Positions 25,801-62,225 of a stretch of DNA of 64,000 bases are shown one piece after another. The position numbers and the translations under genes are program-made. This stretch comes from Gordius sp. MW1 (taxonomy: Eukaryota; Nematomorpha; Gordioida; Gordea; Gordiidae). The stretch lies in NCBI GenBank assembly GCA_964036665.1, contig OZ038532.1, positions 12,232,537 to 12,296,536 of the forward strand. Direction: 5' to 3'. The notes under the pieces are model-generated. The model saw only the letters and a list, made by a program, of their open reading frames with translations, did not search any database and was not told the origin of the DNA. Every line of letters begins with the position of its first letter. Positions within the stretch are counted from its first letter, which is position 1.

Positions 25801-28800
25801 GACGGGCGAGATGTTGAGAAGCAATTTGAAGGCGATTTTCTTTGTGGCTTTCGTTAAGCTCGTGAGGGATCCAAGATCCCAATTTTTCGGCAAATCCCAT
25901 CGAATGAAGATGATTTAGGATGGTTTTATGATCGAACTTCATTATTTCCGCCAATTCACGACTTGTTTGGCGACAGTCCTCCTTCAAAAGTGCTCTGAGA
26001 CACTCTTCGTCGAATTCCGACGGTCTTCCGCTACGGGGCTTGTCAGCGATGTCAAAATCGCCATTTTTGAACTTTGCGAACCATTTTTGTGCTGTAGACT
26101 CAACTATGACACCTTCTCCGTATACTTTACAAATGTCACGGGCTGTTTCAGCAGCGTTTTGACCACGATGAAAAGCGAAAAATAGCAGGTGTCGAAAATG
26201 TTGATTTTTACCGTTGGATACTCCATTTTGACGTCGCGAAAGTTATTAAAAACTAAATTTCTTAAAATCACGATTGGCACAGTTTTGTAGAGGGGAAAGA
26301 GTTCTACCTAATGAATATTATATAATTCATCAGAAGCAAAAAATCGATAAAATAATGCAACATGTGTTGCACCCTACCGAACTTTCTCCCCAACCCTACC
26401 ATAAGCATGAGTTGGATTTAATTTGGCCTTGTATATACCTATCTCGCTTAGAATTGTGACTTGAAAAATAACTATGGCATACTGATGAGCTCTAATTAGA
26501 GCTAAAACGGTATAGTCTATTATCATTTTCGAGTCACATGCTAAAAAGATAGGGATATATGTAGCCAATTTATTCTCTACTTAAAATTGCCTCTAGATGG
26601 CGCTAATTAAATTAAACGTAAATAAGTTAAATACCGCACTCCTTAATGAGGTTATTATCATCTTCTTCAAAATATTAGCAAGACCGCAAATTAATTATTT
26701 CAAATATAATAATGATTTATATCCTTTATACTTAAAGATATTTACTGGGGCTTTGCATCAGGTTGGATCATACTATTTACAACATTGACTATTATTAAAA
26801 AAAATTATCAAGGGATTATATTCAAAATATTTTAACATTATTATATAATTATATCTATTATATATAATAATATTAAATATTGTAGCATATTAACTTATCT
26901 AAAATATGAAAGAATATATGCAGCATTTAACTTCATATATATTATATCTTTATGAAAGAAAATATGCATGCAGCAGTAAAAAATTTAAGCTTCATATATT
27001 ATATGCTTAGATTTTTGCAACCTAATAAAGCGTTTATAACATGAATACATAAATATAAAACTAGTTAGTTATAATTATAAGGATGCTTTGCAAATTTGAA
27101 ATACATTATGATTGGTTGTAGATCCTTTGAGCGATAGACCATTGAGCAAATTCGCTTAAATAGTGCTAGTGTGGAAAAGGGTGAGCCACAGCAATTATAA
27201 CATAAGATATAAAAATCTACCGAATAGCGCTTTTACTTAAAATTTTCAAAGATTGCATATAGAGCACTCCAATTCTCAGGTAGCGGGGCTGTAAATCAGG
27301 GTTAACCGGTTTCACAGGTTATAAAATTAATCATCTCTGCTTCTAGCTCAAAAATATTGCAAATCCTCCAAATTTTGATACCCTTTATCATAAATGGTCG
27401 ATTGTAGAATATTCTGATACATCCATAATCATTACCAAGCCTATAAAAGACATTTAGTGGTTCGACTTGTTACTAAATTTGCCATGAATTAGATAACACT
27501 TTGGATTCGGCAATAGACAAACAAGGGCTTAACAATAACGCAAGTAATCGAGAGAAATGCATGGACCTACCACCATCTGCTCTGCCTAAATCACCCTTAA
27601 AATGGGAATCTCTACTCATCCTTGCCATCCGTTTCGAAAAAGTTGCTATACAAATGAACATGGGCAACGTGATGGGAAATGTCAAGTATTTTACCTTTAT
27701 TTATCACTTCATAATTTCCTCTCAGATTATTTTTCATGTGTGTTGTGGTATCATCGTTATTCAAAATTTTGGTTATTTTAATTAGTTGGAACTCGCAAGG
27801 ATGGGAATCACATAGCAGAGTATACATCGATTCTGAACACCACAAAAATGTTTTGATGACGTTTGGTCTTAGTGAATCGTTTCTTGATGCAAAAAGCGGT
27901 ATTGTAGGCGGGGATTTGGAGATGAAACAATTTTTTCAAACTTGTAAATATTACGTTTTATAAGCCCTTTAAGTTATTATAATTTTAATGTTTAAAAATT
28001 TCATTTCGATTCAAATAAAAATATTTATGAAGTAAAAATACCATTGAATTACTCTTTTGTCTAAATAATTTTTTAATATATGATGTTATAATTACATAAA
28101 CAAGTTCGCCTCCTGACAAATCCTCATTTGGTCCAAGTGAGGGTTGCTGATGCAATGTTACACGTCCTACAAGTGCGACTTGACTACATGGGATCGACAA
28201 TTCTCATAGCCAGAATATCACAAATTAATTCATCAATCAAGGATGATTGGGATATTATTTCTCAAGACTCAAATGACTCGGATAAAGACCGATTGGGATC
28301 CGCAAAAAATTTACACCCTCGAGATTTATTGTGCGTTTGCTTCTCTTTGTTTACCATTTGGAATCATTATTAAAATCACAATTTTTAATATGCCCTAATT
28401 TTAGGTTTTCACGCGTACGCCTACATACCACACTAAAATGGGACCATTTTCAACTCTTAATATGTCAGTCTACCCAATCCGACATGCAAAAGATGTGCAT
28501 GAAAATCGTAGAATTTTTTCAACACCAGTTTCAAAGCAGCGTGGCTATGTTACCTAACCTAAAGAAATCATTGAAACCACCTAATGCATCTGATGCTGCG
28601 CAAGATAAGACAAAAAAAGCTGACTTAAAAAGTAATAAAAATATTACTCAGCTTGAAAACTGGGCAATAAATGGTAAATTTTATAGATTATAAAAATTGT
28701 TTAGGTGCTCAAGATTCCAATTGCCTATCTGACGTCCAACGACATTATGCATATTGGTTAAAGATTAGAAAACTCGTTCAATTAGTAACTTCGTACGATG

Positions 28801-34985: not shown

Positions 34986-35035
34986 CTTCGTAATAATTTT
35001 TTTTGTTTCTGTAAAATAAATTATAATCTTAGAAC

Positions 35036-35137
35036 TAGAGACCTGCAACGGGCCTATTCAGGTCAGTCGGCTCGCCCGTAATTAAAATTTAAAAGCCCGG
35101 CCCGAGCCCGTTAAAATATTAAATTATAAGCCCGGGC
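35036..35137. repeat. Left end of a GGGCC-type hAT element
   Basis: TAGAGACCTGCAACGGGCC matches the end of the hAT at 16233. A possible partner end, GCCCTGCAGATCTCTA, lies at 49794-49809, but the flanks do not form a duplication, so pairing is unproven. The patch stops at GCCCGGGC, where the next hAT element begins. Confidence 0.55.
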
Positions 35138-35429
35138 TAGTGATGCGGAAAACCCGAGAAAAATCTCGGTCTCGTCTCGAAAAACCGAGACGAGAATTTG
35201 AAAAATTGAGTCGAGATCGAGACGAGAATTTTCACCTCGAGACGAGACGAGATTTTATCAGCGAGATCTCGGCTCCAATTTTTAATTGCTATGCAATTTA
35301 TGGGCTCGTTTTTTGTTGTCCGTCCGTCCGTCCGTCCGTCGTCCACCAAGTAATTTGCCCCAGACTTCTGACCTGGAGGTTCGAGTTCAAGCCCAGGAGA
35401 GGAAGTTTTTTTTTTTTAATTAAATTAAT

Positions 35430-36960
35430 ATATTGTTCTTGTTAATACCATCAATAATATGACTTTTTGACCGTCCGCTGGCTCATGACCAATGAAAAAA
35501 ACGACTATTGGCCAAATTGTGAATCGAATTTTAATTGTTTTTTTTTCATTTTTGAATTGGAATATTAGGTTAACATTGATAATTACCCTATGCCCTCCCC
35601 TAAAAGTGCCTATGCCTCTACTGATATGGGTCCCTGTGCCCCTACAAAAGCCTATGCCTCTACTGATGTGGGATCGAATCCCGGCGAATGTTCTGAAATG
35701 CTGGTTCGAATCCCGGACAGGGCAAAATTTTTATTTTTTTAAATTAAATTAATATATTGTTCTTGTTAATACCATTGATAATATGACTTTTTGACCGTCC
35801 GCTGGCTCCTGACCATTGAAAAAAAATGACCATTGGCCAAATTGTGAATCGAATTTTTTTTTTCGTTTTTGAATTGGAATATTAGGTTAACATTGATAAT
35901 TACCCTATGCCCTCCCCTACAAGGGCCTATGCCTCTACTGATATGGGTCCCTGTGCCCTTACAAAAGCCTATGCCTTTGTTAATGTGGATTCGAATCCCG
36001 GAGAGGTTAATACCATTGATAATATGACTTTTTGACCGTGCCCTGGGTACTGACTAATAGAATAAATGACCATTGGCCAAAATGTGAATCGAAATTTTTT
36101 TTCGTTTTTTTTTGACTCGTATGTATTTGTAGACCGTCTCTTGGTACTAACCAATGGAAAAAATGACCATTAGCCAAATTGTTTTTAAGTAAAGGCTAAA
36201 ATTTCAAAATGCTACTCCCAAAATCATAATAAAATACTGAACTAAATTCTTGAATATTTGATGATCAAAAAACGCTTATTGCTGAAGTGTTTTAAATCAG
36301 TGGTTCTTAACCCTTTTATACACGCGGCCCCCCCCCCAAATATCTTATAATTTTTTTGCGGCCCCCCCATTTTTTTCATAATAATCTATATTTGTTAAAT
36401 TATCTATAATATATTGATTTTCTATTATTGTTTCATTTTATTATATAATAAAAAAACATAAAACACAACTTTATTATTTCATTATCTATATAAATAACAT
36501 AAAAACTTCTACCATTCAAAAAATTAATTCATTATAAATAAAAGATACACAGATTTTTTTAATACCAGCAGGGTGTGAGTGGTTATAGCGAAAGGGCTTG
36601 TAAACAGGAGGCAAAATGTTCGAATCCCGGAGAGGACAAATTTTTTTTTTAATTAAATTAATATATGAAACAAATAATTATAATTATGATATACACGAAT
36701 AAAAAATATAAAATTGTTCTTGTTTATACCTTTGATAAAATGACTTTTTGACCGTCCGTTGACTACTAACCAATGAAAAAAATGACCATTGGCCAAATTG
36801 TGATTCGAATTTTTTTTTCCGTTTTTGAATTGGTATATTAGGTTAACATTGATAATTATCCTATGCCCTCCCCTACAAGGGCCTATGCCTCTACTGATAT
36901 GGGTCCCTGTGCCCCTACAAGAGCCTGATGTGGGTTCGAATCCCAGAGAGGGCAATTTTT
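35430..36960 (+). repeat. Tandem units inside the HINE
   Basis: Units begin near 35430, 35745, 36005 and 36715. A further unit is in copy 1 (34430). Shared blocks are TTGTTCTTGTTAATACCATT, TTGACCGTCCGCTGGCTC, GGTTAACATTGATAATTACC, ATGCCTCTACTGATATGGGT and a terminal TTCGAATCCCGGAGAGG. The unit at 36005 is shortened. Confidence 0.8.
36567..36637 (+). other. tRNA-Thr(TGT)-like pseudo-tRNA in the HINE core
   Basis: The sequence GAGTGGTTATAGCG resembles a D arm, GGGCTTGTAAACAGG an anticodon arm with TGT in the loop, and TGTTCGAATCCCGG a T arm. The order and spacing are those of a tRNA, closest to Thr(TGT). The acceptor and T stems do not pair well, so it is a pseudo-tRNA or SINE head, not a functional tRNA gene. 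Confidence 0.5.
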
Positions 36961-37495
36961 TTTTTAATTAAATGGAAAATTTGTATAAATAATTAACTAA
37001 TCATTTTGCATTTAATACCCCCCTATAGGCATTCTCGCCCCTTCCCATCTTTCTCGCCCATAAATTGCATAGCAAATATGCTACGTTTAAACGGAGTATA
37101 GATGAGTTTCGTTCCCCCTTCCCTTCCCCCTTTCTTTTCCCCCCTCCCCCTTCCCACGAGGGCCGATAGCCCGAGTTTTATTTTTAACTATCGAGACTTA
37201 ATTTAGCTAATTAAGAATTTTAATTTACTGAGATTTTCATTTAGAATATTAAATGCAAATTAATATGTATTTGAAACTCTTGTTACTGAATTTCTTACGC
37301 ACCTAATTATCCATTTCGCGCAAATTTCAAATTGTAATATAATCTTATTCAGTAGACAACAGAGTATTAGTGGCCCTTAAGGTATATGAGCAATTAATTA
37401 TGTATTTATTACTTATTCTATAGCATTGTTATATAATATTAAAATTCTAGACCTATAATGAGTTTATGCAACAAGTTCATCATCCAACTCAAAAA

Positions 37496-37720
37496 TGAGC
37501 AGGCTGCTCAAACATTTCACAGTATCCAAGGATGAATCAAATAAAATGGGGAAGTATAAATTGTGCTTTAAAGCAGTAAAAATGACTGATGGCAATACTT
37601 AAGATCTTTAACAACAACTTAAACGTTACCATCATAAGGATTACTATAACCTTTACCCTACTCAGGTTAATAAGGAATTAAACTGCCCAAAACTTTTTTT
37701 CAGCCAACCTAAATGCTTCA
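37496..37720 (+). pseudogene. BED zinc finger of hAT copy A (broken)
   Basis: The frame starts MSRLLKHFTVSKDESNKMGK and continues with a CKLCFK-like pair (first Cys changed to Tyr: KYKLCF), then an in-frame stop where copy B reads LDLQRQLKRYHHKDY. Copy B (61782-61498, minus strand) is the better preserved. The BED finger is the DNA-binding domain of hAT transposases. Confidence 0.7.
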
Positions 37721-39174
37721 GAAATCTAAGCATTTAACAGTTATTATATTCTTTCAAAAATGACTAAATAATTGTATATTTTAAACAATTAGTTGATGAG
37801 CAAAAATAATTATCCCAATTTAGCAGCAATGGCTAGAGATTTTCTGAGCACCCCTTCGATCTCAGTGCCTTCCGAAAGATTGTTTTCGAAGGCCTAGGCT
37901 ATGTATTCTCGATTCAAAGTGATAAATAACAAATCGTAAAAACGCATTTCTTAAATGTTCCATTCCCGAGCGCAATCATCGCGTTTGTTAATTTGTGTGT
38001 TATTGTTTACAAATAATAACACACTTTGCACTTCATTTTTAAATTCGCCATTTTTGTTTGTTCTAATCCATATGGTATCAAATTATTTGTACATCTATCA
38101 ACATTTTGTGGTAAGGTATGTTGATAAAAAAAATTAAATTGATGTCTATTATGACTATCTAAATGTTTTAAAGGCAAAAGCCATGAATTCTAGCCATAGA
38201 ATAGATAGACTGCTTATCAACGCACAAAATGTGTACCCTTTTTTCCGCCATCTTGACTGGCACATTGTAAAGTGGTGATCATATAGAAATTCGTAATTTT
38301 CGCAAATTAAATAATCTTAAAAAGATAAATAAAAAATATTGAATTGGGTAGATATCAAAAACAGCATTTTAAAATAAATAACAAGTTTGTTTAATTAATA
38401 TAGCGCCATCTATATTATGTATAATATTAATTTATTGACGTTCGTTCAAATTTATTATACTAGTGAGAAAGGTAAATTAACTATTATTGAACGTAACTTT
38501 GTGATAAGTTAATGAATCTATGCAAGCATATAATAAATTGTAACAATTTATAGTTTTTTAATTTAACATAACGTCTTTAGATACCTATATTATAAGTGTA
38601 TAAAGGTAACTTTGTGATTAGTTAATGAATATAAGCAAGCATATAATAAATTGTAATGCTATATTGTTTTTTAACATTTTAGTGGGGAATAAAAATAAAT
38701 AGTGAATTACAAAACTGAAGAGTGGCTTTTAATACAAAACAATAATGGATCCACAAAAATTATTCTGAAAAAAAGATAAATCGCATGATAAAAATCAAAA
38801 AAATTTTGAAGGATAATTGTTAATTGTATTTATTAACCCTTAAGAGTACTTAGGGGGTGTGAGAAACCCCACAGTATTACTTTAAAATCATATAAACAGT
38901 TTTGGATTTAGTTTGGTTTTATAGGGTCCTTATAAAGTTATTAACAAGCCTAAACTATTATGATAACCTAGCACATAAATAATTACATAATTAGGATTCA
39001 CTATTATACAAAATATTTATATAAGAATCTTTTTCAAGAAAATCTAATGTTAGTATCTTATATTCCAAAAAAACAAGCAGGTGATGTTGTCATCTTTTCA
39101 TTATGACCAAAAAATTGACCCAGATTCTGGGCCTGCTTTAAAACCAGAAATAATGCATATTTTTTATATTATTC

Positions 39175-41274
39175 TATCGTGTACCCATACACGAAGAATG
39201 AAATTAGCGTATCCGGAGATACGATGATGAAGATGTCTTCCCACACACCCCCCCCCCCCCATCTCATCTTATACAAAAAATAAAGTTAAGAGTTCAACAC
39301 GCGGTACAACTCTTTATCTTACACGTTGTACACTCATAGCGTAGACCATTATTCTTTTACATTTAATTCCTAGTACGCGTATGTTACCCCCCCCCCCCCC
39401 CGACGCGCTTATACGTTTGTGTTATTTATTTCTCCCCATATTGATTGTTTATCAACATGAATACGGATGAGTGATTTGTAGTAAGGAGATTGATACATTA
39501 ATATAATTTTGCTACGTAGTGTTAATGAAATAAAAATGTAGTGAAAATTCCTACTAATAATTACTCCCTGTGGGGAGGACAATGTAAAGCGGTAAAGTTA
39601 TCTTTATTTAGTGGCATTAAGCCCGGCCATTCCCCAAATCACCCAATTTATTCTGTAGATTAATCTGAATTAAATGCTTTAGGATCGTCCCTTTCAATTC
39701 CCCCAATTAATTCCTAAGAATTCTTTCCTTCTGAACCTTTTTATTTAAATCGTGTTCCTTCCACGAATACGATATTTGGTGTCAGATATTCTACTCACGC
39801 CCGAAGGAGGAAACCAGGAATTATTCTACAAAACGAAAATGGAAATAATTTATACAGAAAAATTAATTTGGAATTCAAATTGCCGCCCCCCCCCCTTTCT
39901 TCTGAATAGAATGGATAAAATTATTCGGATAAAATTATTCCAGGAACATCCCGTTTGCCATGAACAACCGTCACAGCGCAGGGATATTAGATAAAATTAT
40001 TCTAGTAAAACAATCAAACCAATCCATGATTCAGAAAGATTGGGAGACGGAGGAAGAAAACAATTCCTTCGAACAATTGGCTACCAAATTTAAACCGCAA
40101 ACATAATTCAGTGGAAATTCCAATATGTCTGAAAACAGATGGCAGAATTCTTCGAAAGAATGAAAATCCCGAAACTGAAAATATCAATTATGCAGAATCT
40201 TCCCCAACTAATTCTCAAGGCCTAAATTCTTAATGTGCCGCTAAAATATTATTGTAAGACAGAATTATACACTTGATTTATTTACATATATTTATTATAT
40301 GAAAATTATATTGTTAACCAATATTTAACCCCCCCCCCCCGCTGTTTCTTTGACTATTATTTGAGAGTCTGCGCTGCGCGAGAAAGGATAATTTTCAAGA
40401 TGGCAGTTTACACTCTATATTAATTATAAGTTTTGTCAAGGCTGTTGCTAGGTGAGTCACAGAGCTGGAAGAAAAATCCGTTAGTCATGACGTTGCCTTT
40501 TTATCACTGATTTTTACATATATCAGTCGTCGTGTGAGCAAAGGCCAGGGTTGATATTCAATGCCAGATGTTTGAAACTTATATTGTTAATAACGCCGCC
40601 TTGATAGTTGCACTGAGCTCTTAGAACTCTATCGAAAATACATTAAGTCTTCGACTTTTAAAAGGAAAAGATATCGTGTACCCATACACGAAGAATGAAA
40701 TTAGCGTATCCGGAGATACGATGATGAAGATGTCTTCCCACACACCCCCCCCCCCCCCCCCCCATCTCATCTTATACAAAAATTAAAGTTAAGAGTTCAA
40801 CACGCGGTACAACTCTTGATCTTACACGTTGTACACTCATAGCGTAGACCATTATTCTTTTACATTTAATTCCTAGTACGCGTATGTTACCCCCCCCCCC
40901 CGACGCGCTTATACGTTTGTGTTGTTTATTTCTCCCCATATTGATTGTTTATCAACATGAATACGGATGAGTGATTTGTAGTAAGGAGATTGATACATTA
41001 ATATAATTTTGCTACGTAGTGTTAATGAAATAAAAATGTAGTGAAAATTCCTACTAATAATTACTCCCTGTGGGGAGGACAATGTAAAGCGGTAAAGTTA
41101 TCTTTATTTAGTGGCATTAAGCCCGGCCATTCCCCAAATCACCCAATTTATTCTGTAGATTAATCTGAATTAAATGCTTTAGGATCGTCCCTTTCAATTC
41201 CCCCAATTAATTCCTAAGAATTCTTTCCTTCTGAACCTTTTTATTTAAATCGTGTTCCTTCCACGAATACGATA
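39175..41274 (+). mobile_element. Young non-autonomous LTR retrotransposon
   Basis: Two direct repeats, 39175-39774 (600 bp) and 40672-41274 (603 bp), are almost identical apart from poly-C lengths and very few substitutions. The flanks are an exact 5-bp duplication TATTC. The first LTR is followed by TTTGGTGTCAGATA, a primer-binding-site-like TGG motif, and the second is preceded by the purine tract AAAAGGAAAAGA. Internal DNA is about 900 bp and encodes no gag or pol, so this is a TRIM/LARD-type element moved in trans. The LTR termini are TATCGT...ACGATA rather than TG...CA. Confidence 0.88.
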
Positions 41275-41518
41275 TATTCAAACCTTCTTGTCCTGGAAAT
41301 TCAAAAATTGTTGGAATGGCATTTTCTCTCAATTTATCATATTTTTCTGAAGTTGGATAGTATATGTCCCTGGAATAATGATAAGAACAGATCCTAGAAT
41401 GGATTGATGGTTGGAACCCTTTTTATCTTCTAAATCAGGACTTCGTATTTTTCATTGGTAACCTAAAATTAAAAAAAAAATTATGTAAAAAAAACTTTAT
41501 AATATATTAACTATTGTT

Positions 41519-41676
41519 CATGGGCGTACGCCCCCCCCCCCCCTAATTAACGAAAAATAAAATTTTTCAATGCAAAAACATTGACAAATTAAAAAAATTT
41601 ATGTTTTGCCCCCCCTCTAAATGAACTTTTAAACGTTTGGCCCCCTACCCTAATTCAAAACCTGGGTACGCCCATG
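41519..41676. mobile_element. GGCGTAGCC MITE, copy 4
   Basis: Ends are CATGGGCGTACG and GGGTACGCCCATG, with a C run next to the left end. The interior matches copies 2 and 6 in reverse. It lies within the P/THAP-type element, right of the LTR element. Confidence 0.8.
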
Positions 41677-42426
41677 CTATTGTTAGAATATTGTTTATCC
41701 CGAGTTTTTCTATGAGAACAATACGGAACAGCACAAAATGGCATAGTTGATATACACCAATTGTGCAAGTTATAGTACCGGATAATTTGACACACAATTT
41801 ACCATATGGATATATGGCATGAGCAGTCTATGTAGTCTATGATTCTAGCATCCCTGATAATTATGAAAATTTTGTATCAAGTAACTTACAAAGCTTCCTT
41901 GTATAGAATTTAATTATTATTTTAGGTAAGAATTCTTTAAGGCAATCTCCTCTTAGAAGTACTTTATAATAACATGAGTAATTCATAAATATTTTAGGTA
42001 TTAAAGTCAATGAAAATTTTGAAGATGTAGTCATAACCAATCCCATTTCTAAAGGTATGGGCTTAAAATTATAACAAATAAATAATTTAGGTATGAACAA
42101 TAAACTACAAAATATTAATATGCCACCGCAATTCAAGAGGGGTTATGGCCATATTAGAATAGAAAGTATTACAAAATAATTTTATTTTTATTTTGCCATT
42201 TATTTAGGTAGCTCATCATTATCAAGTATCAAGCAATCCTCCTCATGGAATTCTTTTCAATTATGCACAAATATATGACACTTATTAAGAAGAAGTAATT
42301 TTATATTAGATATTTAAACAAATTTGCCCAAAAATGAGATAGCGAAGAAAACTCTACCACCTGTTCTAAATTTTAATATAATAAAAAAAATGATTATTAT
42401 ATTTATTATGGATGTTATACATATAT

Positions 42427-45168
42427 TAGAGGTGTGCACGGATCAATCCGACATCCGATCCGTCCGAACTCGGATCGGATCAACATTTTAAATTTGAAAG
42501 TCGGATCGGATCAACATTTTATAGTCGAATCGGATTGGATATTTAAAATAAACAATAATAAGTTCTAATTAATTAAATTAATAATTTTTAGTATACCTTT
42601 TCATTTTTGATGCCCAATACCACCTCCCACCTTACTTACCCTAATATATTTATCAGTATTTCCCTAGCGTTTTTCCCTAGCTAGACTTTCTTGTTTCGCG
42701 AGAAAGGAGCTAGTGTCAATGATAAATCAGCATCTCTCGTTTCCTTTTTAGCACACGCATTTCTTTCTATCTCAACTCAACTCCGAAAATCATCAATCAC
42801 AATCTCCCCTTTCTTTAAAGCACACACGTAGCTCCTTTCCCTCTTGATTCCGGGTAATCATGAATGATGTAGCTTGCTATCTTAGAAGCAATCTCCATGG
42901 TGCAGGGGTATTGCCGTTGACGAGATGGTGTGAGTCATGCTGACTTGAGGGGGAAAAATAATGGGGGGGGGGTGTTGGAAATAATCATTGGGATTTGTAA
43001 CAACTAGCAAATACAACAATATTGTTTATCATATTAAAAACCCGGGCTGGAAGAAATATAATAAAAAAATGTAAAAGAAATATGCTTCAACTAGTTAAAA
43101 AATAAGACGGAAAAAGTCAAATTTGGAGTTACTTTGACCTTCTAAATGAAAATGATACATACACCGGTTATGTTATCTGCAAGAAATGCCATCATATCTA
43201 CTTCTACACATATAATTCCATTCGAGGTAGTTCCCATCTTTTGCATCATAAATGTATTCCAAAAACTTCAGCTAAAAATACAATTGATAAATTTGTTACC
43301 AAACCTCTCGCTGAAATCACAAAATTAAAATTTTTTTTGAAAAGCATCTAATTTATTTTATTTCAAAAGATATGTGACCGTTTTCAATCGTTAACGGGGA
43401 AGGATTTAGAGCAATGCTCCAAAAAGCTCTGAATATTGGTGCCATTCATGTTCATATAAACGTTGATGAATTTCTTTCAGATAAGACTACCTTAAGTAAG
43501 ATAGCAAAACTTGCAGATGTAAGTAGAGAAGCATTGATATTAGAGTCACTCCCCCATTTAAAAGCAAATTCATGTTCAGCCACTCTCGACCTCTGGACAG
43601 ATGACTTTGTCAAAATAAACTACTTAACATTTTTTTTACATTATTAATCCCTCGGAATCCTACATAAGCATATTCTTTTCACTTCAAAAATAGATGTTAA
43701 AAAAAAACAGGGGAAAATATTTTAAGAAAAATATCTGTAAATTTTGAAAAACTTCACATCCCTACGGAATACATGAGATTGATAAGTTACGTTAACGATC
43801 AGGGCTCTAACATGGTCAAAGCCTTGCCAAATCATAAGCGATTGAATTGCACGTCCCATTTACTGAATACAGTACTACGAAACGTATTCAATAAAAATGA
43901 TTTTATATTCCATTACCCTCAGGTTAATGACTTGATAGAAGCATGCAAAAAGCTAACGACATTTATGAAGCAAAGTGGCAAAAATAAATATTTAAATCAT
44001 ACATTGCATCAAGCAATAGAAACAAGATGGAACTCCAGACTCGACAAGTATAAGGAACTGACCACATATCTAACTTCTATAGAAATGCCAGAGAAGATGG
44101 ATGTGATTAATAAAAATTTGCTGACCAACTAATAGAAGTACTCCGGCCGTTTAAAACGGCTTTTTTAGTTCTGGAAGCTGATCAACACCCAACCTTTCAC
44201 AATATATTGATTCAATATTACCAATTACTCAGTGATCTTTCACAATCAGACCACGAGCAAACTGATGATTTTGAAGAACATCACGAAATTAATGATCTTA
44301 AAAAAAATATTTGTACCACCCTCAAGTCAAAATTTCTAATCACTCAACAACATAAAATTGCCACATTTTTATGCCCAAATTATCGCCAACTCAGGATGCT
44401 CCCCCCAAATGAGCGAGTAGGCGTAATTAATAAAATAAGATCCACACGAGCGTTTAAGCATTTTTTGGTAGATTCTGCAACTGAGATTGAAAATTATGCG
44501 GCAATAGTAGTGATAGTCAGCCTCAAAAAAAGACAAAAACGTAATAACACACATTTAAATATGTATATATATATATTTTACATAAAATAAATTATTTAAT
44601 TTAAATTTTAAAATAGTTAATCAATGGGAAGATGAGCAGGAAGAAGATAAAACCCCCGATGAAATCTCAATTTACCTTTCGTTAAAAAATGAAGATTGCA
44701 AATATGATTCAAAAAAAGATTTGCTGGAATGGTGGGTTTCATATCAAACAGTTCTGCCAAGGCTTTATAAGCTGTCAAATAAAGTTTTAGCTGTACCTGC
44801 TACCTCTACCACTTCGGAAAGAAATTTCTCGGAGGCTGGAAGAACATTAGAAGAAAAAAGAACGCGATTTAAACCAGAAAATTTAGATTCTTTATCCTTT
44901 TTATATGATAATATGGAATTAAAATTTTATTTATTTCGGATTAAAATTTCTATACCTTATTTTTATGTATTTTGAATTTAATCATCAATAAAAAGTTCTG
45001 TTCGTAAAATTTTAATTTAAAGATCGGATCGGATTTAGATTTTAAGAAACTCGGATCGGATCGGATTTAGATTTTAAAAAACTAGGATAGTATCGGATGG
45101 GATATAAAATTTTTCAAAAACCCCTCGGATCGAATCGGATCAAAAAATTTGATCCGTGCACACCTCTA
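42427..45168 (+). mobile_element. BED-type hAT element inside the MULE-like element
   Basis: Ends TAGAGGTGTGCACGGATC and the inverse GATCCGTGCACACCTCTA are flanked by ACATATAT (42419-42426) and ATATATAT (45169-45176), an 8-bp duplication with one change. Subterminal arrays of CGGATCGGAT lie at both ends (42440-42540 and 45020-45150). The interior encodes a decayed hAT transposase on the plus strand. No part of the MULE-like element intervenes. Confidence 0.9.
43115..44975 (+). pseudogene. hAT transposase of 42427-45168 (frameshifted)
   Basis: Fragments in order: a BED finger near 43115-43290 (WSYFDLL then GYVICKKCHHIYF and SSHLLHHKC); 43414-43647 with SCSATLDLWTDDF; 43773-44132 with CTSHLLNTVLRNVF and TRWNSRLDKYKEL; 44207-44560; and 44721-44940 with the dimerisation block VPATSTTSERNFSEAGRTL. 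Several frameshifts separate them. The domain order is complete, so this is a degraded autonomous copy. Confidence 0.85.
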
Positions 45169-45259
45169 ATATATATACAATAAAATTACTAAGTAATTTT
45201 TTCTTGTAACTTCCAAAAGGAAAATATTATGTTTTTTAAATTTAGAAGTTGGTTTTTGG

Positions 45260-45442
45260 TTGAAATCATTAGGTATCACAAAATTTTCATTGACATTTTC
45301 AATATCTAAAATATTTATGAATTACTCATGTTATTATAAAGTACTTCTAAGAGGAGATTGCCTTAAAGAATCACTATCTAAAATAATAATTACATTCTAT
45401 GCAAGGAAACTTTATAAGTTTCTTGATACAAAATTTTCATAA
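45260..45442 (+). pseudogene. Coding remnant in MULE-like right arm, mirrored in left arm
   Basis: The frame contains KIFMNYSCYYKVLLRGDCLK and ends TKFS. A related frame lies on the minus strand of the left arm at 42136-41861. The duplicated reading frame shows the arms were once coding. I do not recognise the domain; it may be the C-terminal end of the element's own transposase. Confidence 0.4.
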
Positions 45443-46620
45443 TTATCAGGGATTCATGGCTTTTGCCTTTAAAACATTTAGATAGTCATAATAATATCAA
45501 CTTAAATTTTTTTATCATACCTTACCACAAAATGTAGATTAAATGACAAATAATTTGATATCATATGGATTAGAACAAACAAAAATGGCGAATTTAAAAA
45601 TGAAGTGCAAAGCAAAGTGTGTTATTATTTGTAAACAATAACGCACAAATTAACGAACGCGATGATTGCGCTCGGGAATGAAACATTTTAGAAATACGTT
45701 TTTACGATTTGTTATTTATCACTTTGAATCGAGAATACATAGCCTAGGCCGTTTTCGAAGGCGTCTCTGACTATTCGTAAACATCGCAATAGATTAACTC
45801 ATGAATCTGTCAGGAGCTTGCTATGCCTAAACTCATGGCACACCTCAACAATTTTAAACCCATCACATTAATAACATTTTACGTCAAAATGTAGGCTATG
45901 CAGATGCATTCAAAACTAAATTTTTTGCAAAATGATAATTAAAATATATGAGCATAAGCTTTTTTAGTACGTAATTATTTTATGCGAAAATTAATAATAA
46001 ATGGAATAAGTAAATATTTCGTTATATAGTCACACTATAATAGAATTGTTTAAATTTTACAAACTTTAATTAAATTAAATATGTGCAATTAACGTAAGAT
46101 CTCAAAACTTTTATGTTCTTCCAACAATAATGCCTACTTTATTGTATTTTAAATAATGATAATGTTTTTAAAAGTTTACTTTCGCATTTTTGTTATTATT
46201 TTAACGTTATCATATAGGATCTCAATAATTTCATTATGTTAAAATATGAGGATATTATTAAACTTTATCCTTTTATTGAGCCTTAGCCAGGAAATAAAAG
46301 TTATTGTTTAGCAATTTTATACCTTCGATTCAAGTAGTATATAACACCTCTATTAATGCTTCCTACCTTAAGTTACTCATCTAGCTTGTGTTTTAGAAAT
46401 TGGTTCCAGTATAACCAATTTATATCTTAAAAATAATTTATAAGATCCAGAAAAAAATATATATGGTATAATTATTTTTAAGCGTCGAGACGACACGAGA
46501 ATTTAGAGACGAGGCGAGATCGAGATTTTTCTAGGCCGTGACGAGATTTTAATAATCGCACCCGAGACGAGACGAAATTTTGCTTTCGAGACCGAGACGA
46601 GATCAAAACACTAATAATTA

Positions 46621-47300
46621 ATGACGATTGTCAAGACTTTAGGTGAAAAGCGGGAAGATCATATAGAGACTTATGGGATTAAAAAGGTTAGTCACATTGA
46701 CTATCCATTTATACGGCGAAAGAAATTATGGGACATAAGATTGCAATGTAATATTAGGAGAATAAATCGCTTGGCAAAACCATCCACTAGGTATGAAGCT
46801 TTAAAGAAGAGTAATTCGGGAAAGAAAGGTTCATGAACCTCGATTTATATACGAAACGCTAAGGATTAAATCCCGCCAGAATGCCTTCAGACTTATGGCT
46901 GCAAGCAAGTTGGAACAGAACGTGAACAATGATTGGGAGACGTTAACTGCGGACATTAAGGAAACGGCAATCCAGGTTCCGGGACGACCAAAGGAGGCAA
47001 AACTCTGATTAGGGAACTATGGTGGTGGAATCAAACGTTTAGGGATTGTATTCCAAAAAATCAAATTCCAAAAAATCTAAAAAATTGATGTATTATATAT
47101 AAAAAGACCAAGAGAGTGTCGAAGCAGGCCCTTACATTAGCGAAGAATGCTGCGCACACTAAGACGAAGGGCGACAGAGATAGTCGCGATGCTGCTCAAA
47201 GTAGTCAAAAACGAGAAGAGTAAAACCATATTCATGCCAAAGGAGATGGTGCAAAGGTGGAAAGGATTTTTTAAGCAGGGCGAAGGCAGGATTATCCAAT
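46621..47300 (+). mobile_element. RTE LINE fragment, plus strand
   Basis: The frame MTIVKTLGEKREDHIETYG with SHIDYPFIRRK aligns with the endonuclease/linker part of the RTE at 19556-19260 (QFQKREYHIVTYRSGKH and QTDYLFIWRK). Later pieces (WETLTADIKETAI-like at 46938 and KEMVQRWKGFF at 47246) continue the order. Many stops and deletions make it an old relic. Confidence 0.6.
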
Positions 47301-47680
47301 TGGAGGCCGGTTAAATTATTTCTTTTAAACAAAAAACTAAATGGAAACTCTAACAAAAATTTGTTTTTGCCAGAAATAACGTCAATGAATTTACTACATT
47401 GGCTGCATGCAAATTATATTTGTAAATCCTCGTTAGCTTTTCAATCATGTTTCTACCTATACTATGCTTACAATAGCGTAGCTAGTTTAACCAATGAGAG
47501 GGAAGAGGCGAACTTATATTTTACATCAGGAATGGGGTCAATGGCGGTTAAATAAATTCCATAACCATTTGTCTTAATAACACAGCTCTACAAATTTTGA
47601 CTTTGTGATCACATCCCCCTATCCGACCAATAATTCTAATAGAGAATTTCGCGCTGAAAAATAATATGTTTTCAGTTTTT
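47301..47680. other. Unassigned sequence
   Basis: This lies between the RTE relic and the TTCGAATCC-type hAT element. Nothing recognised. Confidence 0.35.
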
Positions 47681-48922
47681 ACGCCTCTGGAAAATATTCG
47701 AGATTAGATTAGAGATTCGATTCGAATTCGGATTCGATTCGAAATATCAATTCGAATCCGAATTCGAATCCATATGTCTTAGTTTCGAATCGAATTTCAC
47801 GCTGCTAAGATTCGAAAATCCGAATCAAATCCTTGAAAAATCGAATTTTATTTTTTGTAAGTTTAATTTAAATGGACGAGACTCCAATATTTACAATATT
47901 TAGCTATTTTTATCTTACCGCATTTTAGTTATTTTTCCTGCTCCAGTTTGAAAAAGTTTAATTTAAAAATTTTCAAACTTACATAAGTTCTGGAGAACGA
48001 GGATCACAATTTAATTAAATTATGGACTTTGATAAAAACTGCAAAACAGCCAAAAATATTTCACGATTAAGGCTATATGTAAAGAATTTGACCCACCAAT
48101 TAATTACATAAAGGCAAAACTTGACATGGAAGTCAGATGGAACATCAGATCATGCTAACATGGCCAAACAGAAATTGAACATATATAGCATTCAATAAGA
48201 AGACAGTCTTATAAGCGATGTGGTCGATTTAAGGCTCAATATGTGAGTGCTTATCACCAGTGCATGGCATATCGTATAGAAAAATTTGGAAACTGCTATA
48301 GGAAGTCAGCCCGATTTTGTATCAACTAGCGAGGTATCAACACAGGATCGTCTATTAAGAGCGACATGATTTTTGCACATTGAATGTTGAGCCTTTACAA
48401 TGGTGGAAATCGAATCAACGTCGTTTTCCAACCATTCAAAAATTGGCATAAAATCTTTTCTCTATACCTGGATCATTTACCCCTTGCGAAATAATATTAT
48501 CAACCGGCACAAATTTATTGACCAAACACAAGCAATCGTTTAATAATGAGTGTAAGGAAGATAATTTGCCTTAAAAGCTGGCTAAAAACGGTTCTTGATT
48601 GTCCTACACATACCGCCATAGATTTTTGTTTGCTTTTAATATTTTTATTTTCGATGTGTGTATTTAAAAAAAAAATTAGTTAATTTTTTTGAATGTATAT
48701 GCAAATTAAAAATCATAGTAGCTTTTTTAATGTGTTTTTTAATAATAATAAAAACGTAATATATATTCGAATCGATTCCAAATCCTTAAATTTTTTTCGA
48801 ATCGAATTCGAATCTTCATTTTAATATTCGACGAATCTCGAATCGAATATTTTTTTTGAAAAAAAATTCGAATCCGAATCGAATACCAGAAATAATTAAT
48901 TCGATTCGAAATCCAGAGGCGT
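47681..48922 (+). mobile_element. hAT element with TTCGAATCC subterminal repeats
   Basis: Ends ACGCCTCTGGA and TCCAGAGGCGT, flanked by the exact 7-bp AGTTTTT on both sides. Dense ATTCGAATCCGAAT repeats lie in the first and last 150 bp. The interior keeps a plus-strand relic near 48395-48500 reading LQWWKSNQRRFPTIQKLA then FSIPGSFTPCE, which is the hAT C-terminal dimerisation region. It is dead. Confidence 0.75.
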
Positions 48923-48929
48923 AGTTTTT

Positions 48930-50164
48930 TTCTACGATTACCAGTTTTTTAGATATACGAGGTTGAAAGTTCCAAAAATGCCCTTTTTAAGCCGTTTTGA
49001 GGCTATATTGCCACGGCATTTTTAATATTTAGCGAAAAATAGTGATATATTCATGTAGATTAAAGTTTCATCTATAAGTTCATTATTTTATTTTTTTATA
49101 TCTCCCTTATACTCAAATTTATACTCGTTTGCGTAACCCCTTCTCCTTATCCAAATTTGTCCCACTATGTCTGGAAAAAGGAATTTATTAGAGTTCATAC
49201 TACACACGCGCTGTTTACTAACACATCTCTCTCTCCCTTTCTCCATCTCTTCCACTCCCGCCCCCATACCTATCAAGCATACATTAAGGGGGCGGGAGTG
49301 GAGGAGAAAGAGAGGAGAGAATTATAATCATGTGAATAGTTATCTACATATTGAATTAGCTTACTTTAAATTTTCTCGATTTTCATAGGGTATGATTAGA
49401 GTGAACCACGTCTATATATAGTCTCTTATTAACACTAATCAATTTGAAATGGGCGTTGAGTTATTGATGAATGAATGAGTAACGAGAAAAAAATAATTAT
49501 ATTTCTTTGGTTATTTGATTAAAATTAAATTATTATTATCAATTAATATAAAATATCATAAAAGCACGCCGTTGTTTAAAAATATAGAATCTTCAATCCA
49601 TTTATGTGAATGTCATTGTATAAAATCGAACCCATCGATTTTATACATTGACATTCACACCGTTGTTTATATTTAATGCACAAAAAATATATATGATTTT
49701 GTTATGGACACAGTGGGCCTTTTTATTTATATGCACGGCCCGAGCCGGCTAAGTTAAATTACTGCCCGTCCCCGATCCTTTGTTTTTTTACAAGCCCTGC
49801 AGATCTCTAAGAGAAATTACCCTAAATAAATATATTTTATTTATGATAATGCATTTAGTTAAATAGCAACGAAACTATGTAATTAAAAAGATTATATTAA
49901 GGCTGCTAAAATTATATGGCGCATAGGGAGTTTGTACAAATTAATTAAGGCCCATGGAACTGGACAAGAAAAATATTCTAATGGATACCAATGGTAAATC
50001 TATATAGCGATTGTCTTTTATTTGGTATTGCTCAAATCTTAAATAACAACCATACATATTTGATTTAAGCGGTTGTTTTAAGTTTTTAAAAATAAGTTGT
50101 GTTTTAATTGTCCGTCTTTATTCATGCTTGGTAATCAATAACAAAGCCTAAATGTAATTACGGG
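48930..50164. other. Intergenic stretch with two hairpins and a hAT end
   Basis: It contains a long purine/pyrimidine hairpin at 49227-49319, a near-perfect 24-bp hairpin at 49606-49658, and an isolated GGGCC-type hAT end at 49735-49809 (closing GCAGATCTCTA). No coding sequence is recognised. Confidence 0.5.
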
Positions 50165-50560
50165 CTAACGCTCATACCTTGGTCCCGCGATCTAAATCTC
50201 ACTTGGGATTTTACTACGGTCGACATCTTCGCCCCCTCAAACTCTTCCCCCGACCTTATAATCAAGGCAGAGAGGAAAAAGGCCGAAAAATATTCCACTC
50301 TCACCAATACAGTTTTCATCCCCGTGATGGCTACCACATTGGCAACCTAGGTTCAGAGGTTCTCGCTTTCCTCAAACAAATCGGGAAAGCGATGACAAAT
50401 TCTTCTAGAACATAAGGAATTCTTCTACATCAGGCAAAAGGTCACTATGGAAATCGTCAAATCCAACACGATTTCCATACACGGATCAATGCCATCCAAT
50501 TAGTTTTTACCGCGTTTTTTTTGTAGTATTTTATTTACCAATGTATTTTATTACCCATGT
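50165..50560 (+). mobile_element. CR1-like LINE 3' fragment
   Basis: A frame in 50195-50400 reads LTWDFTTVDIFAPSNSS then TNTVFIPVMATTLATLGSE and AFLKQIGKAMTN. This post-reverse-transcriptase block occurs in many invertebrate LINEs. The following 50430-50560 is its 3' UTR, because the same DNA stands alone at 8375-8480. No reverse transcriptase core remains. Confidence 0.55.
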
Positions 50561-50990
50561 GATACCTTTTTATATATTAAATAAAATATATATTCATATA
50601 AAGAAGTCACTTAGCTCAATTAATAGATTTACATATTTAGAAGCTTATAAAAATTTTATTATAATTAAATTAAGATATATTAAATAAATGCTTGGAGGGG
50701 AACCAAGGGGGCCAATTTTACCTTTAGGTAGGTTTACTCTTGTGACCCCCTTCGATCTAGTAGCTACGCCACTGCATTATAGGTTGTACTATAAATATTT
50801 TTGACCCAAATTAATCAGTGGTTTTTTCTGCAAGTTCAGAATATTAGAAAAAGCCCTTGACAAAATTCTGAACACTCCTGCTAAGAACAACCATTTGGTA
50901 AAATATTTAAGATTAAGAGTTACATTTTAGAAAATAATTGTAAACATATTTCAAAAATAGTATTGATTTTATTCATGCCAAATGTAGTTG
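50561..50990. other. Unassigned, with a MITE end
   Basis: AT-rich. At 50755-50780, TAGCTACGCCACTGC looks like the end of a GTGGCGTAGC-type MITE whose other end (50690, GGAGGGGAACC) is degraded. Confidence 0.35.
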
Positions 50991-50999
50991 ATTGAGGTA

Positions 51000-52990
51000 C
51001 TTTAGAAGGTTATTTTGCATTGGGGTACCTTTAACGTTTATGTCCATGATACTTTTCGATTGTGGACCTTTAAACGCTACATTGCTAAGCGCTTTGACCA
51101 CTTTTCAGCTTCTTCGAATACTTTCTCCTTTGTCTCCTCGCAACAGTACTCTTTTCTGGGCATATAGCATACACCAAGGAGATATGTCTCCAATTACCGT
51201 GTTAATAATTATATTGAATAAAAAGGGACTTAGGGTAGAACCTTGATATAATTCAATTTAAGGTTTAGTGTCCACAACTGTCGTTTTAACGCAGATTTTG
51301 AGGCTTCATAAATGTTTTTCAGGAGCCGTTTTTCTCAACCACCACCACATTAACTCACGAGGGACCGTGCTATAAGCTTTCTCTAAGTCGATAGAGACCC
51401 TATTTAGGTCTCTTCTCCTTTCCCCGTATTTATCCATCATTTGACTTAGTGCGAAGATTGGGTCGTGGATGTGACGGTCACAAATCCGAATTTGTTAGCC
51501 GATACCTCGACCTCGTTTTTCAGCTTTGTTGTTAAGATTTTTTGAATAATATTCAAAAGAGTGGCAAGTTAGCTTAATACCTCTGTAATTCCACACTCCT
51601 GAAGGTCTTTTTTTATAATCGTACTAGCTCTCCATTGATTTAAGAAATTCGCCTTCTTCCAATATCTTGTTAATGAGGTTTGTCATGGTGGTGACTCCTT
51701 CTTCACTACATCCTATCAATGCTTCCATGGGTATTCCTTGGCCATTTGCTTTTACCTTTTGCATTTAGTTCAGATTTATCCTTTCATCTTCCTGAAATAG
51801 TTTGACCAATTATGTTTGGCTGAATATAGGAAAGGAAATCTTTGTCATATGCAATGTTCCTTTAAATATCCTTTCCATTACTCCGTTCGGCTTGAATAAG
51901 GCTTGACCTTTCCAATTTTTGACTATTTAAGGACTCCAACATCGCGACTTATTTTCTCCCTTATCCTGAACTGTACATAAGCCTGTCGCCCCCTTTATGA
52001 TCCATTTTGTTTGTCATCAGGGTGTACGCTTCTTTCCTATTGCAACGGCTTTTTCGTGGCTTTCATTACCTTCATATATTCTTGATAATCCTCCGACTTT
52101 TTTGATTTATGCCACCGTCTATATAGATTTTTCTTTCTTTCGATCCTAACCGATTGATCCCACCACCATTGTTCCCTATTCATAGCTTTGCTTTCTTTGG
52201 TCTGTCCTAGAACACGAATCGCTGTTTCCTTTATGTCCTTAGATAGTGTCTCCCAATCGTCGTCTACGTCTCTTTGCAACTTCCTTGCACCCAAGAGTGA
52301 GGAGGTTTTTTGATGGTATTTTTCATTCGTCGACGTATCTTTTAGCCTTTCCTATGGAATTCGAGATTCATATACCTTTCTTCTTTAGGGAAATACTCTT
52401 CTGGCAAGATCCATAACAAGGGGACGATGTTGTTTGGCGATTTCTTCTCCCGGTATTACTTTGCAATCCTTGATCCCATAAGTCCTTTCGCCGTATAAGC
52501 AAATAATCAATTTGAAATGCTTACCACTTCTATAGGTTACAATATGATCTTCGCGTTTTTAAAAATAGTGTTAACGATCGCCATGTCATATGCTTGGTAA
52601 GCCTGCAAGATTGCGTTCATACCTGAGGCGATCTTTCCCTACGTGAGCGTTGAAATCGCCCCAATAATTAGCCTTTCCTGTCGGATTTCTTGTATTTCCT
52701 TTTCCGATGAATCGAAGAATATGTCTTTCTTTGATTTCATACACCCAATTTGGGGAGCATACGCGCACATAACGGTTAGGAGGCCCCCTTGATCTGCAAT
52801 CTTCACCCACATTAACCTGTCGGAACAACGCTTGACTTCCACCACCTTGTCCTTGAATGATTCGCTTAGAACGATACCGACCTCGTTTCTATGATTTGGT
52901 GACCCACCGTAGAATAGTTTGTAGCCTTCTCCTAACTCCCATGCTTTGGTTCCGTTCCACCTCATCGCTTGTAGGCTGGCGATGTGTACC
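51000..52990 (-). mobile_element. RTE LINE copy 2, degenerate
   Basis: It is collinear with the LINE at 15.8-20.3 kb on the same strand. It starts (minus strand) at about 52990 inside the endonuclease domain with RWNGTKAWELGEGYKLFY and GIVLSESFKDKVVEVK, then VMCAYAPQIGC and FNAHVGKDRLRYE. The linker GARKLQRDVDDDWETLSKD (52294) follows, and reverse transcriptase pieces continue down to about 51000. Many small deletions and stops. It ends abruptly next to the Ty3/gypsy remnant. Confidence 0.82.
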
Positions 52991-52999
52991 TAGCACTCA

Positions 53000-54540
53000 T
53001 TTAAGTAAAATAATAAGTCATATTTATCCGAAGGATGTTGATAAACTTACGAGGAGGTTAAGGAATTTTTAATACGGATATATTCTGATAAATATTTGAT
53101 TTGTTATTACAGGGAAATGTTATTTCGATCGGAGAGAACTAATGAAGCTATAAATGAGTATTTAACTAAGCTAAAAAATGTTAGCAATCGCTGCCAATAT
53201 AAATTCCCCACTGATGAAATTTTAAGAGATATTTTTATACTAGGAGTAAAATTACCTAGATTAACTGTTGAATTAAGGACTACATACCCCATGGGCATTA
53301 TAACATTTGACATTCATCAATTGTAGACAAAACTTCTAACGATTTGAATATAAATAAATTACATCGGGATAAAAACTAGGAATTTGACAAGTAAATATAA
53401 TAATTTTTCATGAAATGTTTTTAATCTTAGCACCTTTAGGAACAACAAGAAAATAGTATGTTATAGATGTGCTAGACCAAACCACCTAGCTCGCAATTGT
53501 TGGTCAAATCTGTCGTCAATAACTATATCCGACTTGAAATACGATGATGCGGTAACAAAAGCTGAGATCGACGTTTTTCAATCAGAAACCGTTCACTTTT
53601 CAATTCGATACTGGTGCAGCCTGCACAGTCATTGATGAACCGACGTGGCTTAGCATCGGGAAGCCGCCATTATTGCCAGGTTCAGATATTTAAGGTTATG
53701 GCCAAACAAATCAAACTTTAGGGAAGTGCAGTGCAAGGGTAGGGGTAAACAATATATCACATGTAATAGATACGCATGTTGTAAAGGGGAAATAAAATTT
53801 GATTTTCGGTATACCTCACATCATAAGATTTAATATCACTTCCATCCATCATTAAATTAAACCTTATTTTCGATAAGAAAAAATTTTTAACGGAAGAAGA
53901 TGTTTTTAAACAAATTTCATCGGTTTTTAGTCATAAATTCGGTGAAGTAAAAGATCTTAAAGTTGTTAATGAGGTAGAAAAAACAGCACGTCTGATAAGT
54001 TTTACCCCAAAACGCGTACCATTTCCGCTACGTCACCTGTCGAAACAGAGTTCAAACGTTTAGTAGGTGAAGAGGTTATTAGAAAGATCGACCCGACAAC
54101 AAGTCCGACAAATTGGGTGACGGCTACGGTAACCATTAGGAAGAAATAGGGTGACGCTTGCATATGTGGGGATTTCAGATTGACTTTAAATAAATTCCTA
54201 TCAAAAGATAACAATCTTCTGCCAACGTTCAAAGATGTTGCAAGTGAAATAGCAGGCTGTAAATTATTCTCTTTTATTGATTTAAGAGATTCTTTCCTAC
54301 AAAATTTCTGAGGAGAGTTCTAAATTGTTAAACATAGCTACTCATAGTGGGTATTTTCAAAATTTAAGGCTACCTTTTGGGTTAACTACGACGCCTATAA
54401 TATTTCATCGTTTAATGAAAAACTTGCTCAAAGGCTTAAAAGGCGTAAGCGTTTTTATGGACGATGTCATAATAAGCGGGAAAACAACGAGGAACATAAA
54501 AAATCTAATAGAAACATTAAATTAATCAAAAATGCAGAAT
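53000..54540 (+). mobile_element. Ty3/gypsy-type LTR retrotransposon remnant (no LTRs seen)
   Basis: Plus-strand fragments in gag-pol order: the end of a gag-like region (53096-53326); a CCHC zinc knuckle near 53455-53510 (CYRCARPNHLARNC); an aspartic protease with FDTGAACTVI near 53600; then reverse transcriptase pieces with LPFGLTTTP and VFMDDVII, the catalytic D-D pair, at 54325-54525. Frameshifts and in-frame stops interrupt each piece. RNase H and integrase are absent. I found no LTRs. It is a dead host retrotransposon fragment. Confidence 0.75.
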
Positions 54541-54579
54541 TAACGACAGCACTAGAAACCTGCCCTCTGCTTAAAAATA

Positions 54580-54690
54580 AAGCAACGTGCCGGACCTGGA
54601 CGGGCCGTAATATAACTTTACGGGCTCGGGCCGGGCCTAGATATACTCAAGGCCCGTTAAAAGCCCGTGACAAATCAATTAGATCAAGGA
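54580..54690. repeat. GGGCC-rich hAT subterminal remnant
   Basis: GGCCGTAATATAACTTTACGGG and CGGGCCGGGCC match 33986-34140 and the subterminal repeats of the hAT at 16233. No element ends are paired. Confidence 0.5.
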
Positions 54691-54841
54691 TAAAAGAAGG
54701 TATTTTTCTAATTTGCAATTATTTTATGTATATTAAATTAACAAGGAAAGTTAAATTTTATTTCCATCTTAGTTCATTTATTCATCATTATCTCAACCGT
54801 AAATGTAATTCATATGCGTATTCCCTTCCCATGGGCGTAGC

Positions 54842-55986: not shown

Positions 55987-56092
55987 GGCGTAGCCAATTT
56001 AGGCTAGAATGGGGCAGTTTAGGTAAGGCAAAAAATGTTTTTTAGATCATAAATTTTTAGATTTAGAGGGGGAGCAGCTGCCCATTTTCCCC
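55987..56092. mobile_element. GGCGTAGCC MITE, copy 5 (split by the P/THAP foldback)
   Basis: CATGGGCGTAGC at 54830-54841 continues as GTAGCCAATTTAGG at 55990 once the foldback is removed. The right end near 56092 is poorly defined. Confidence 0.55.
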
Positions 56093-60299: not shown

Positions 60300-60485
60300 T
60301 CGCCTTTTAAAAAATAGAAGATCTCCTCTGATCGCGAATTATTAATTTTTTATTTTTACAATATTTTATTAACATTATAACACATACATATTATTTACCA
60401 TATCGGTGAAAAAAAAATATATTAAAATACATTTTTTACGGACTCGGGCCCGGCTTTGTATAAAATTAGCGGGCCGGGCCCGGGC
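60300..60485. repeat. AT-rich spacer ending in GGGCCCGGGC hAT patch
   Basis: 60440-60485 carries CGGGCCCGGC and GGGCCGGGCCCGGGC, the subterminal repeats of the GGGCC-type hAT family, directly before hAT copy B. No ends are paired. Confidence 0.45.
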
Positions 60486-62222: not shown

Positions 62223-62225
62223 TTA

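Follow-up and report, generated by a model that had tools for sequence, protein, structure and literature searches.

Transposons of the hobo type, which are hAT elements, have been implicated in chromosomal rearrangements in Drosophila. The inversions 2j, 2q7, and 2z3 of Drosophila buzzatii are described as mediated by the transposon Galileo (PMC2775673), and two processes are given as sources of exchanged target duplications, namely, recombination between inverted copies and hybrid element insertion (Delprat et al. 2009, PMC2775673). Here, we describe a pair of hAT copies in a stretch of 64,000 nucleotides (the window) from Gordius sp. MW1, contig OZ038532.1, positions 12,232,537 to 12,296,536 (G000:C6:12232537-12296536 in the 211.8-Mb genome of 12 contigs that was searched). 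Copy A (35138 to 46613, plus strand) and copy B (60486 to 62222, minus strand) lie in opposite orientations on either side of a segment of 13,872 bp (46614 to 60485), which, relative to the ancestral arrangement, has in all likelihood been flipped. The reading that we consider probable is that two opposite hAT insertions ca. 14 kb apart recombined ectopically, inverting 13.9 kb and exchanging their outer duplications. Copy A also holds a stack of nested transposons, which thus decorates one of the two inversion breakpoints.

Copy A retains its own sequence at 35138 to 35283, 37174 to 37890, and 45760 to 46613, the remainder being inserts, and its ends read TAGTGATGCGG.. and ..CACTA; the terminal inverted repeats of the family are TAGTG..CACTA. 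Copy B contains the hAT dimerization domain (Dimer_Tnp_hAT, PF05699, at 61185 to 61472, E value of 1e-15 in Pfam). A preliminary description of the stack, made from the letters alone, had pointed to empty sites in B for two of the inserts of A, a HINE and a Mutator-like element (MULE), and had proposed that the layers be excised and aligned with B and with other genomic copies. Both ideas were borne out: B is uninterrupted at the two sites, and A without the HINE and the MULE aligned end to end with reversed B (1,579 of 1,661 aligned bases identical; Kimura two-parameter [K80] distance of 0.051, or 0.056 in the multiple alignment of hAT copies).

Around neither copy did we find an 8-bp duplication of its own, the two flanks differing at 8 of 8 positions in each case. 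Among 29 other hAT loci, 18 of the 22 copies with both ends located had their own duplication within one mismatch (no end pair was found for L041, L042, L044, L046, L047, L052, and L064, and the count is uncorrected for L060, whose right end was mislocated with 4 mismatches but whose right flank GTGGTTTC matches its left flank). The lack of own duplications at A and B is thus attributable to the inversion and not to a different family. Compared crosswise, the flanks do match. The 8 bp to the left of A (GCCCGGGC, 35130 to 35137) are identical to those to the left of B (60478 to 60485), and those to the right of A (ATAATTAA, 46614 to 46621, with the reverse complement TTAATTAT) correspond to those to the right of B (TTAATTAG, 62223 to 62230), giving 0 and 1 mismatch of 8, respectively. 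As a control, 210 pairs of other hAT copies yielded only 3 of 420 flank pairs within one mismatch.

The crosswise joins also restore repeats that are dispersed in the genome. For each join, the best 40 candidates were scored and the window's own pieces were subtracted (B's own flank, 1 of 40, for join 1; the window's own halves, 2 of 40, for join 2). When the left flank of A was joined to the reversed left flank of B (join 1), all 39 non-self matches crossed the junction, at 82 to 89% identity. Along similar lines, all 38 non-self matches crossed the junction between the reversed right flank of A and the right flank of B (join 2), at 70 to 71% identity. In contrast, among the 38 matches listed for the present-day join at A, none crossed or ran more than 9 bases past the junction, and none of the 38 listed for the present-day join at B crossed it; the matches listed for both controls correspond to a repeat of ca. 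290 bp. Ten fetched relatives, five per join, were continuous at the junction and carried the target site once.

The left part of this ca. 290-bp repeat (35034 to 35137, plus strand) is collinear with positions 14 to 113 of copy L070 and continues at 60485 to 60292; the right part (60292 to 60485, minus strand) corresponds to positions 105 to 307 of L070 and now lies 25 kb off in reverse orientation. The ca. 100 bp on the left of A, taken alone, match other copies of the repeat at up to 94%. Join 2 restores a diverged copy of a long interspersed nuclear element (LINE), with its downstream part at 46621 to 47275 (plus strand; positions 1931 to 2686 of L086, 66%) and its upstream part at 62223 to 62940 (minus strand; positions 1152 to 1948 of L086, 67%). 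The long frame of L086 reads, by eye, as an endonuclease plus a reverse transcriptase. Repeat coordinates therefore run on, in reversed orientation, over jumps of 25 kb (the ca. 290-bp repeat) and 16 kb (the LINE).

Given that the duplications match crosswise and that both repeats are restored in this way, and neither by the present joins, the segment from 46614 to 60485 appears to have been inverted by exchange between the hATs. The preliminary description had treated the outer layer as a simple hAT insertion. Nested insertion without any rearrangement, mutation having erased the outer duplication of A, is consistent with all the inner layers, but the crosswise duplications, the repeats restored on both sides, and the failure of all 76 listed non-self control matches to span the present junctions make it scarcely credible. 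A and B are better described as the two products of an inversion.

The recombination that we favor would have proceeded as follows. Two members of one hAT subfamily would have inserted in opposite orientations ca. 14 kb apart, one into the ca. 290-bp dispersed repeat, with the duplication GCCCGGGC, and the other into the old LINE copy, with the duplication TTAATTA[T/G]. The inverted hATs would later have undergone homologous (ectopic) recombination, turning the 13.9 kb round and swapping the outer duplications. The resulting copy A also contains the HINE and the MULE; a BED-hAT and a P/THAP element, the latter in the left inverted repeat, went into the MULE, and a young long terminal repeat (LTR) element went into the P/THAP element. 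In this reading, the inversion is later than both hATs; nesting does not order it relative to the inner insertions.

Hybrid element insertion requires no second prior insertion: a hAT and its sister-chromatid copy would contribute one end each and insert together into a second site. It is predicted to give the same duplication pattern together with an inversion (Delprat et al. 2009, PMC2775673), and the recent activity of a related hAT subfamily, with ten identical copies, speaks in its favor. So do the derived states found in no other copy, which A and B share at 4 sites, compared to 2 for A and L040 and 1 for B and L040. However, copies made in this way are identical at birth, and extra shared changes relative to L040, a copy with a perfect 8-bp duplication of its own, would be expected, while the shared derived sites numbered 4 for A and B, 4 for A and L040, and 2 for B and L040. 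Moreover, A and B were no closer to each other (K80 of 0.056 in the multiple alignment) than either was to L040 (0.060 and 0.054, respectively), so the inversion would have had to follow the insertion almost immediately. We consider this route unlikely. If true, it would represent an instance of alternative hAT transposition in nature, and not in the laboratory, resolved to the base and with five other elements of five kinds in the breakpoint copy. The distances among A, B, and L040 are those expected of two separate insertions. Together, the K80 values and the shared derived sites favor, without proving, separate insertions followed by recombination, and we infer that homologous recombination, and not aberrant hAT transposition, made the inversion.

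Several observations weigh against recombination between the two hATs. An exchange point inside the 1.7-kb hAT was sought among the 89 substitutions between A and B (51 with one state found in no other copy and 38 with both states elsewhere among 19 others), and no chimeric switch was seen. In this analysis, gap columns were left out and L053 stood for the ten identical copies L054 to L063; for the count of derived sites, columns in which fewer than 8 further copies were represented were dropped as well, as were 76 with no clear ancestral base. The derived sites given above include those found in no other copy, which lean slightly toward a pairing of A with B, on very few sites. The second target duplication carries a mismatch (TTAATTAT versus TTAATTAG), and its 8 letters are not conserved in the relatives of join 2, so the evidence there is the unbroken continuity and not the target letters. 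A crosswise match within one mismatch at both ends was also obtained for one control pair, L045/L056, which accounts for two of the 3 flank pairs mentioned above; here, the match reflects a chance resemblance of two intact target sites. Finally, the inversion is read from a single assembly and might formally have arisen during assembly, at the inverted repeats. Inverted pairs of long repeats, here with 95% identity, are where assemblies classically become misoriented, and the segment between the hATs might have been wrongly oriented or a heterozygous inversion resolved arbitrarily. Nevertheless, the window does not contain a single N, copy A extends over 11.5 kb with its nested inserts, and among the matches listed the joined flanks had no further copy above 89% (join 1) or 71% (join 2); we judge an artifact to be quite improbable.

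A related hAT subfamily is represented by ten copies (L054 to L063, on contigs C1, C3, C4, C6, C7, and C8 of G000) that lie at different places and are identical over 1,697 bp; L053 differs from them at one aligned column. Nine of the ten have exact 8-bp duplications of their own, as does the tenth (L060) with the alternative right flank. Judging from this identity, the subfamily appears to be in a very recent or ongoing burst. Elsewhere, L042 and L044 (C7, ca. 75 kb apart) have flanks in common, and so do L050 and L051 (C2, ca. 3.2 kb apart), pointing to segmental or tandem duplication.

The stack inside copy A, as set out in the preliminary description, is real: all the repeats and coordinates that it reported are present, and every layer is backed by uninterrupted copies elsewhere in the genome. 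The HINE (35284 to 37173, plus strand), of a non-autonomous Helentron type, lies in a T-run of the hAT, its ends being uncertain by a few T/A. HINEs and Helentrons are described as having subterminal inverted repeats, middle repeats, a 3' palindrome, and a T-rich target without duplication (PMC4067079). The window copy shares these features: its subterminal inverted repeats are at 35283 to 35305 and 37056 to 37078, tandem repeats are present, the target is T rich, and no target duplication was found at its ends, but its 3' palindrome is, by eye, imperfect. The site is uninterrupted in hAT copies such as B and L040, and it is these copies, with no duplication beside them, that place the HINE inside the hAT as previously claimed. 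A second HINE was found at the same T-run in a more distant hAT copy, L041 (reversed, around positions 381 to 1501), which suggests that this T-run may be a repeatedly used HINE target. That a hAT moved with the HINE already inside, giving both A and L041, was rejected, since A groups with B and L040, both of which are HINE free.

The MULE (37891 to 45750, plus strand) has terminal inverted repeats of ca. 470 bp and exact 9-bp duplications (GTTTTCGAA) at 37882 to 37890 and 45751 to 45759. In the window, this 9-mer occurs on the plus strand only at these two places (37882 and 45751) and never on the minus strand; genome-wide, the bare 9-bp pattern is uninformative (1,987 forward and 1,751 reverse occurrences, versus 1,713 and 1,749 for the reversed pattern). 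All 30 other hAT copies that were aligned (B and the 29 loci, ten of them mutually identical) are uninterrupted at this site. After excision of the P/THAP element, the two arms were identical at 441 of 463 aligned bases over ca. 470. The long terminal inverted repeats and the exact duplication are those of a MULE, and the MULE copy L018 has an exact 9-bp duplication as well (TCAGATTAA). No transposase was found among the open reading frames (ORFs) listed for the window's MULE. In the related L014, an ORF that, by its coordinates, would lie between two blocks of one arm contains a MULE transposase domain (PF10551, E value of 2.2e-16), its best match being a ZSWIM1-3 RNaseH-like domain (E value of 2.2e-30). 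The related MULE formed by L014, L015, and L037 (G000:C7:6520518-6526865) seems to carry its transposase inside a long inverted arm, between arm positions ca. 196 and ca. 257.

Within the MULE, the BED-hAT (42427 to 45168, plus strand) has its transposase in several frames and is flanked by ACATATAT (42419 to 42426) and ATATATAT (45169 to 45176), alike at 7 of 8 bp with one mismatch. It contains the hAT dimerization domain (Dimer_Tnp_hAT, E value of 1e-18), which together with the 8-bp duplication places it among hAT elements, while the zf-BED match (E value of 0.0028, 18.1 bits) is under the Pfam cutoff of 20.6. Matches that start at query position 50 or less and extend to at least 2594 were found for a total of 17 other copies, and the site is uninterrupted in MULE copies, for instance, L010, L011, L012, L018, and L022.

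The P/THAP-type element (38195 to 41841, minus strand) lies in the left inverted repeat of the MULE, between exact 8-bp duplications (ATTCTAGC) at 38187 to 38194 and 41842 to 41849. In the window, ATTCTAGC occurs twice on the plus strand (38187 and 41842) and once on the minus strand, outside 33 to 48 kb. Along with these duplications, a THAP domain (PF05485, 41210 to 41422, minus strand; E value of 2.1e-5, 25.6 bits versus a cutoff of 23.9) identifies the element, for which no ORF of at least 120 amino acids is listed in the window. The site is present once in nine other MULE arms (L010, L011, L012, L014, L015, L018, L022, L026, and L031), of which L010/L012 and L014/L015 are, by position, probably the two arms of one element each. 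Variants of one or two bases were found in L017, L025, L027, and L038, and L021 has a deletion. The right arm of the window's MULE lacks ATTCTAGC, but this 8-bp gap was rejected as evidence against the duplication, being a private deletion where other copies keep the 8-mer. A short element at 23101 to 23528 of the window has both P/THAP ends without the middle and is likely a miniature inverted-repeat transposable element of this family.

The innermost insert is a non-autonomous LTR element of 2.1 kb (39175 to 41274, plus strand) in the P/THAP element, with LTRs of 600 and 603 bp (39175 to 39774 and 40672 to 41274) that are identical at 594 of 597 aligned bases. The sequence TATTC stands exactly at both of its ends (39170 to 39174 and 41275 to 41279), a motif too short for a count test, with 116 occurrences on the plus strand of the window. 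In the three P copies that run well through the site, it is empty, with a single TATTC in two and TATTT in one; many other P copies end 5 to 10 bases beyond the junction because they differ there. No gag-pol was found, the longest stop-to-stop frame listed between 39175 and 41274 being of 81 amino acids, and paired LTRs with a 5-bp duplication and no gag-pol are what characterizes a non-autonomous LTR element. LTR ends of the TG..CA type were not found, both LTRs reading TATCG..CGATA. Other copies have LTRs ca. 1.5 kb apart (e.g., C7:3553095/3554601 and C1:20280368/20281869), indicating a short non-autonomous LTR family.

Taken together, nesting supports an order in which the ca. 290-bp repeat and the LINE would be oldest, followed by the two hATs, then the HINE and the MULE, and then the P/THAP element and the BED-hAT, with the LTR element after P/THAP; no order follows within the HINE and MULE pair or within the P/THAP and BED-hAT pair. 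The uninterrupted copies agree with the order from hAT to MULE, to P/THAP and BED-hAT, and to LTR element that was proposed earlier. The proposal that exact target duplications provide this order holds for the inner layers but not for hAT A, with its 8 of 8 mismatches, nor for the HINE, which has none. The nesting itself was also correctly recognized, although it is five deep instead of four (ca. 290-bp repeat or LINE, hAT, MULE, P/THAP, LTR element).

Dating by divergence, also proposed earlier, separated only the youngest layer. Terminal branches, which are upper bounds on insertion age with rough standard errors of 0.003 to 0.008, had K80 values of 0.029 for hAT A, 0.022 for B, and 0.026 for L040, compared to 0.042 for the MULE (arms of 0.021 and 0.032), 0.033 for P, and 0.030 for the BED-hAT. 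The LTR pair had a K80 value of 0.005, ca. 0.0025 per copy. Hence, the LTR element alone is clearly younger, while hAT, MULE, P, and BED-hAT tie near 0.02 to 0.04 with overlapping errors, and dating was discarded as a means of ordering these four, as it adds little to nesting. To the left of the stack, a reading frame at 28286 to 28690 gave a partial match to the BLTP1_C domain (E value of 1.4e-8).

This case indicates that flanking duplications are worth testing across copies and not just around a single copy. The same 8-bp marks order the stack and bring to light an inversion hidden in a single assembly, with no outgroup, and crosswise flank joins compared with the genome's own repeats would provide a general test for every inverted transposon pair, with which transposon-made inversions could be counted. 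The locus also resembles the reported pattern of inversion breakpoints gathering other insertions, although at this locus the insertions may predate or postdate the inversion.

Among the papers listed for hAT inversions of this type, judged by titles and the openings of abstracts, none showed one, which is weak evidence of absence. Hobo-type rearrangements resemble the window pair in involving the hAT family, the mention of hobo in PMC2775673 concerning experimental populations. As described for Galileo (PMC2775673), a switch point between parental sequences was decisive, while none is visible in the window pair, and Galileo belongs to the P superfamily and makes 7-bp duplications, whereas the pair described here is hAT with 8-bp duplications. 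The window inversion is also only 13.9 kb long, and its uninverted state is deduced from paralogous repeats and not from uninverted chromosomes. Like the Galileo inversions, however, it has two opposite copies of one cut-and-paste transposon at its breakpoints, exchanged duplications, a target that is single copy in the uninverted state, and breakpoint copies into which other transposons have inserted (PMC2775673). The signature is the one known from Galileo, here in a hAT family.

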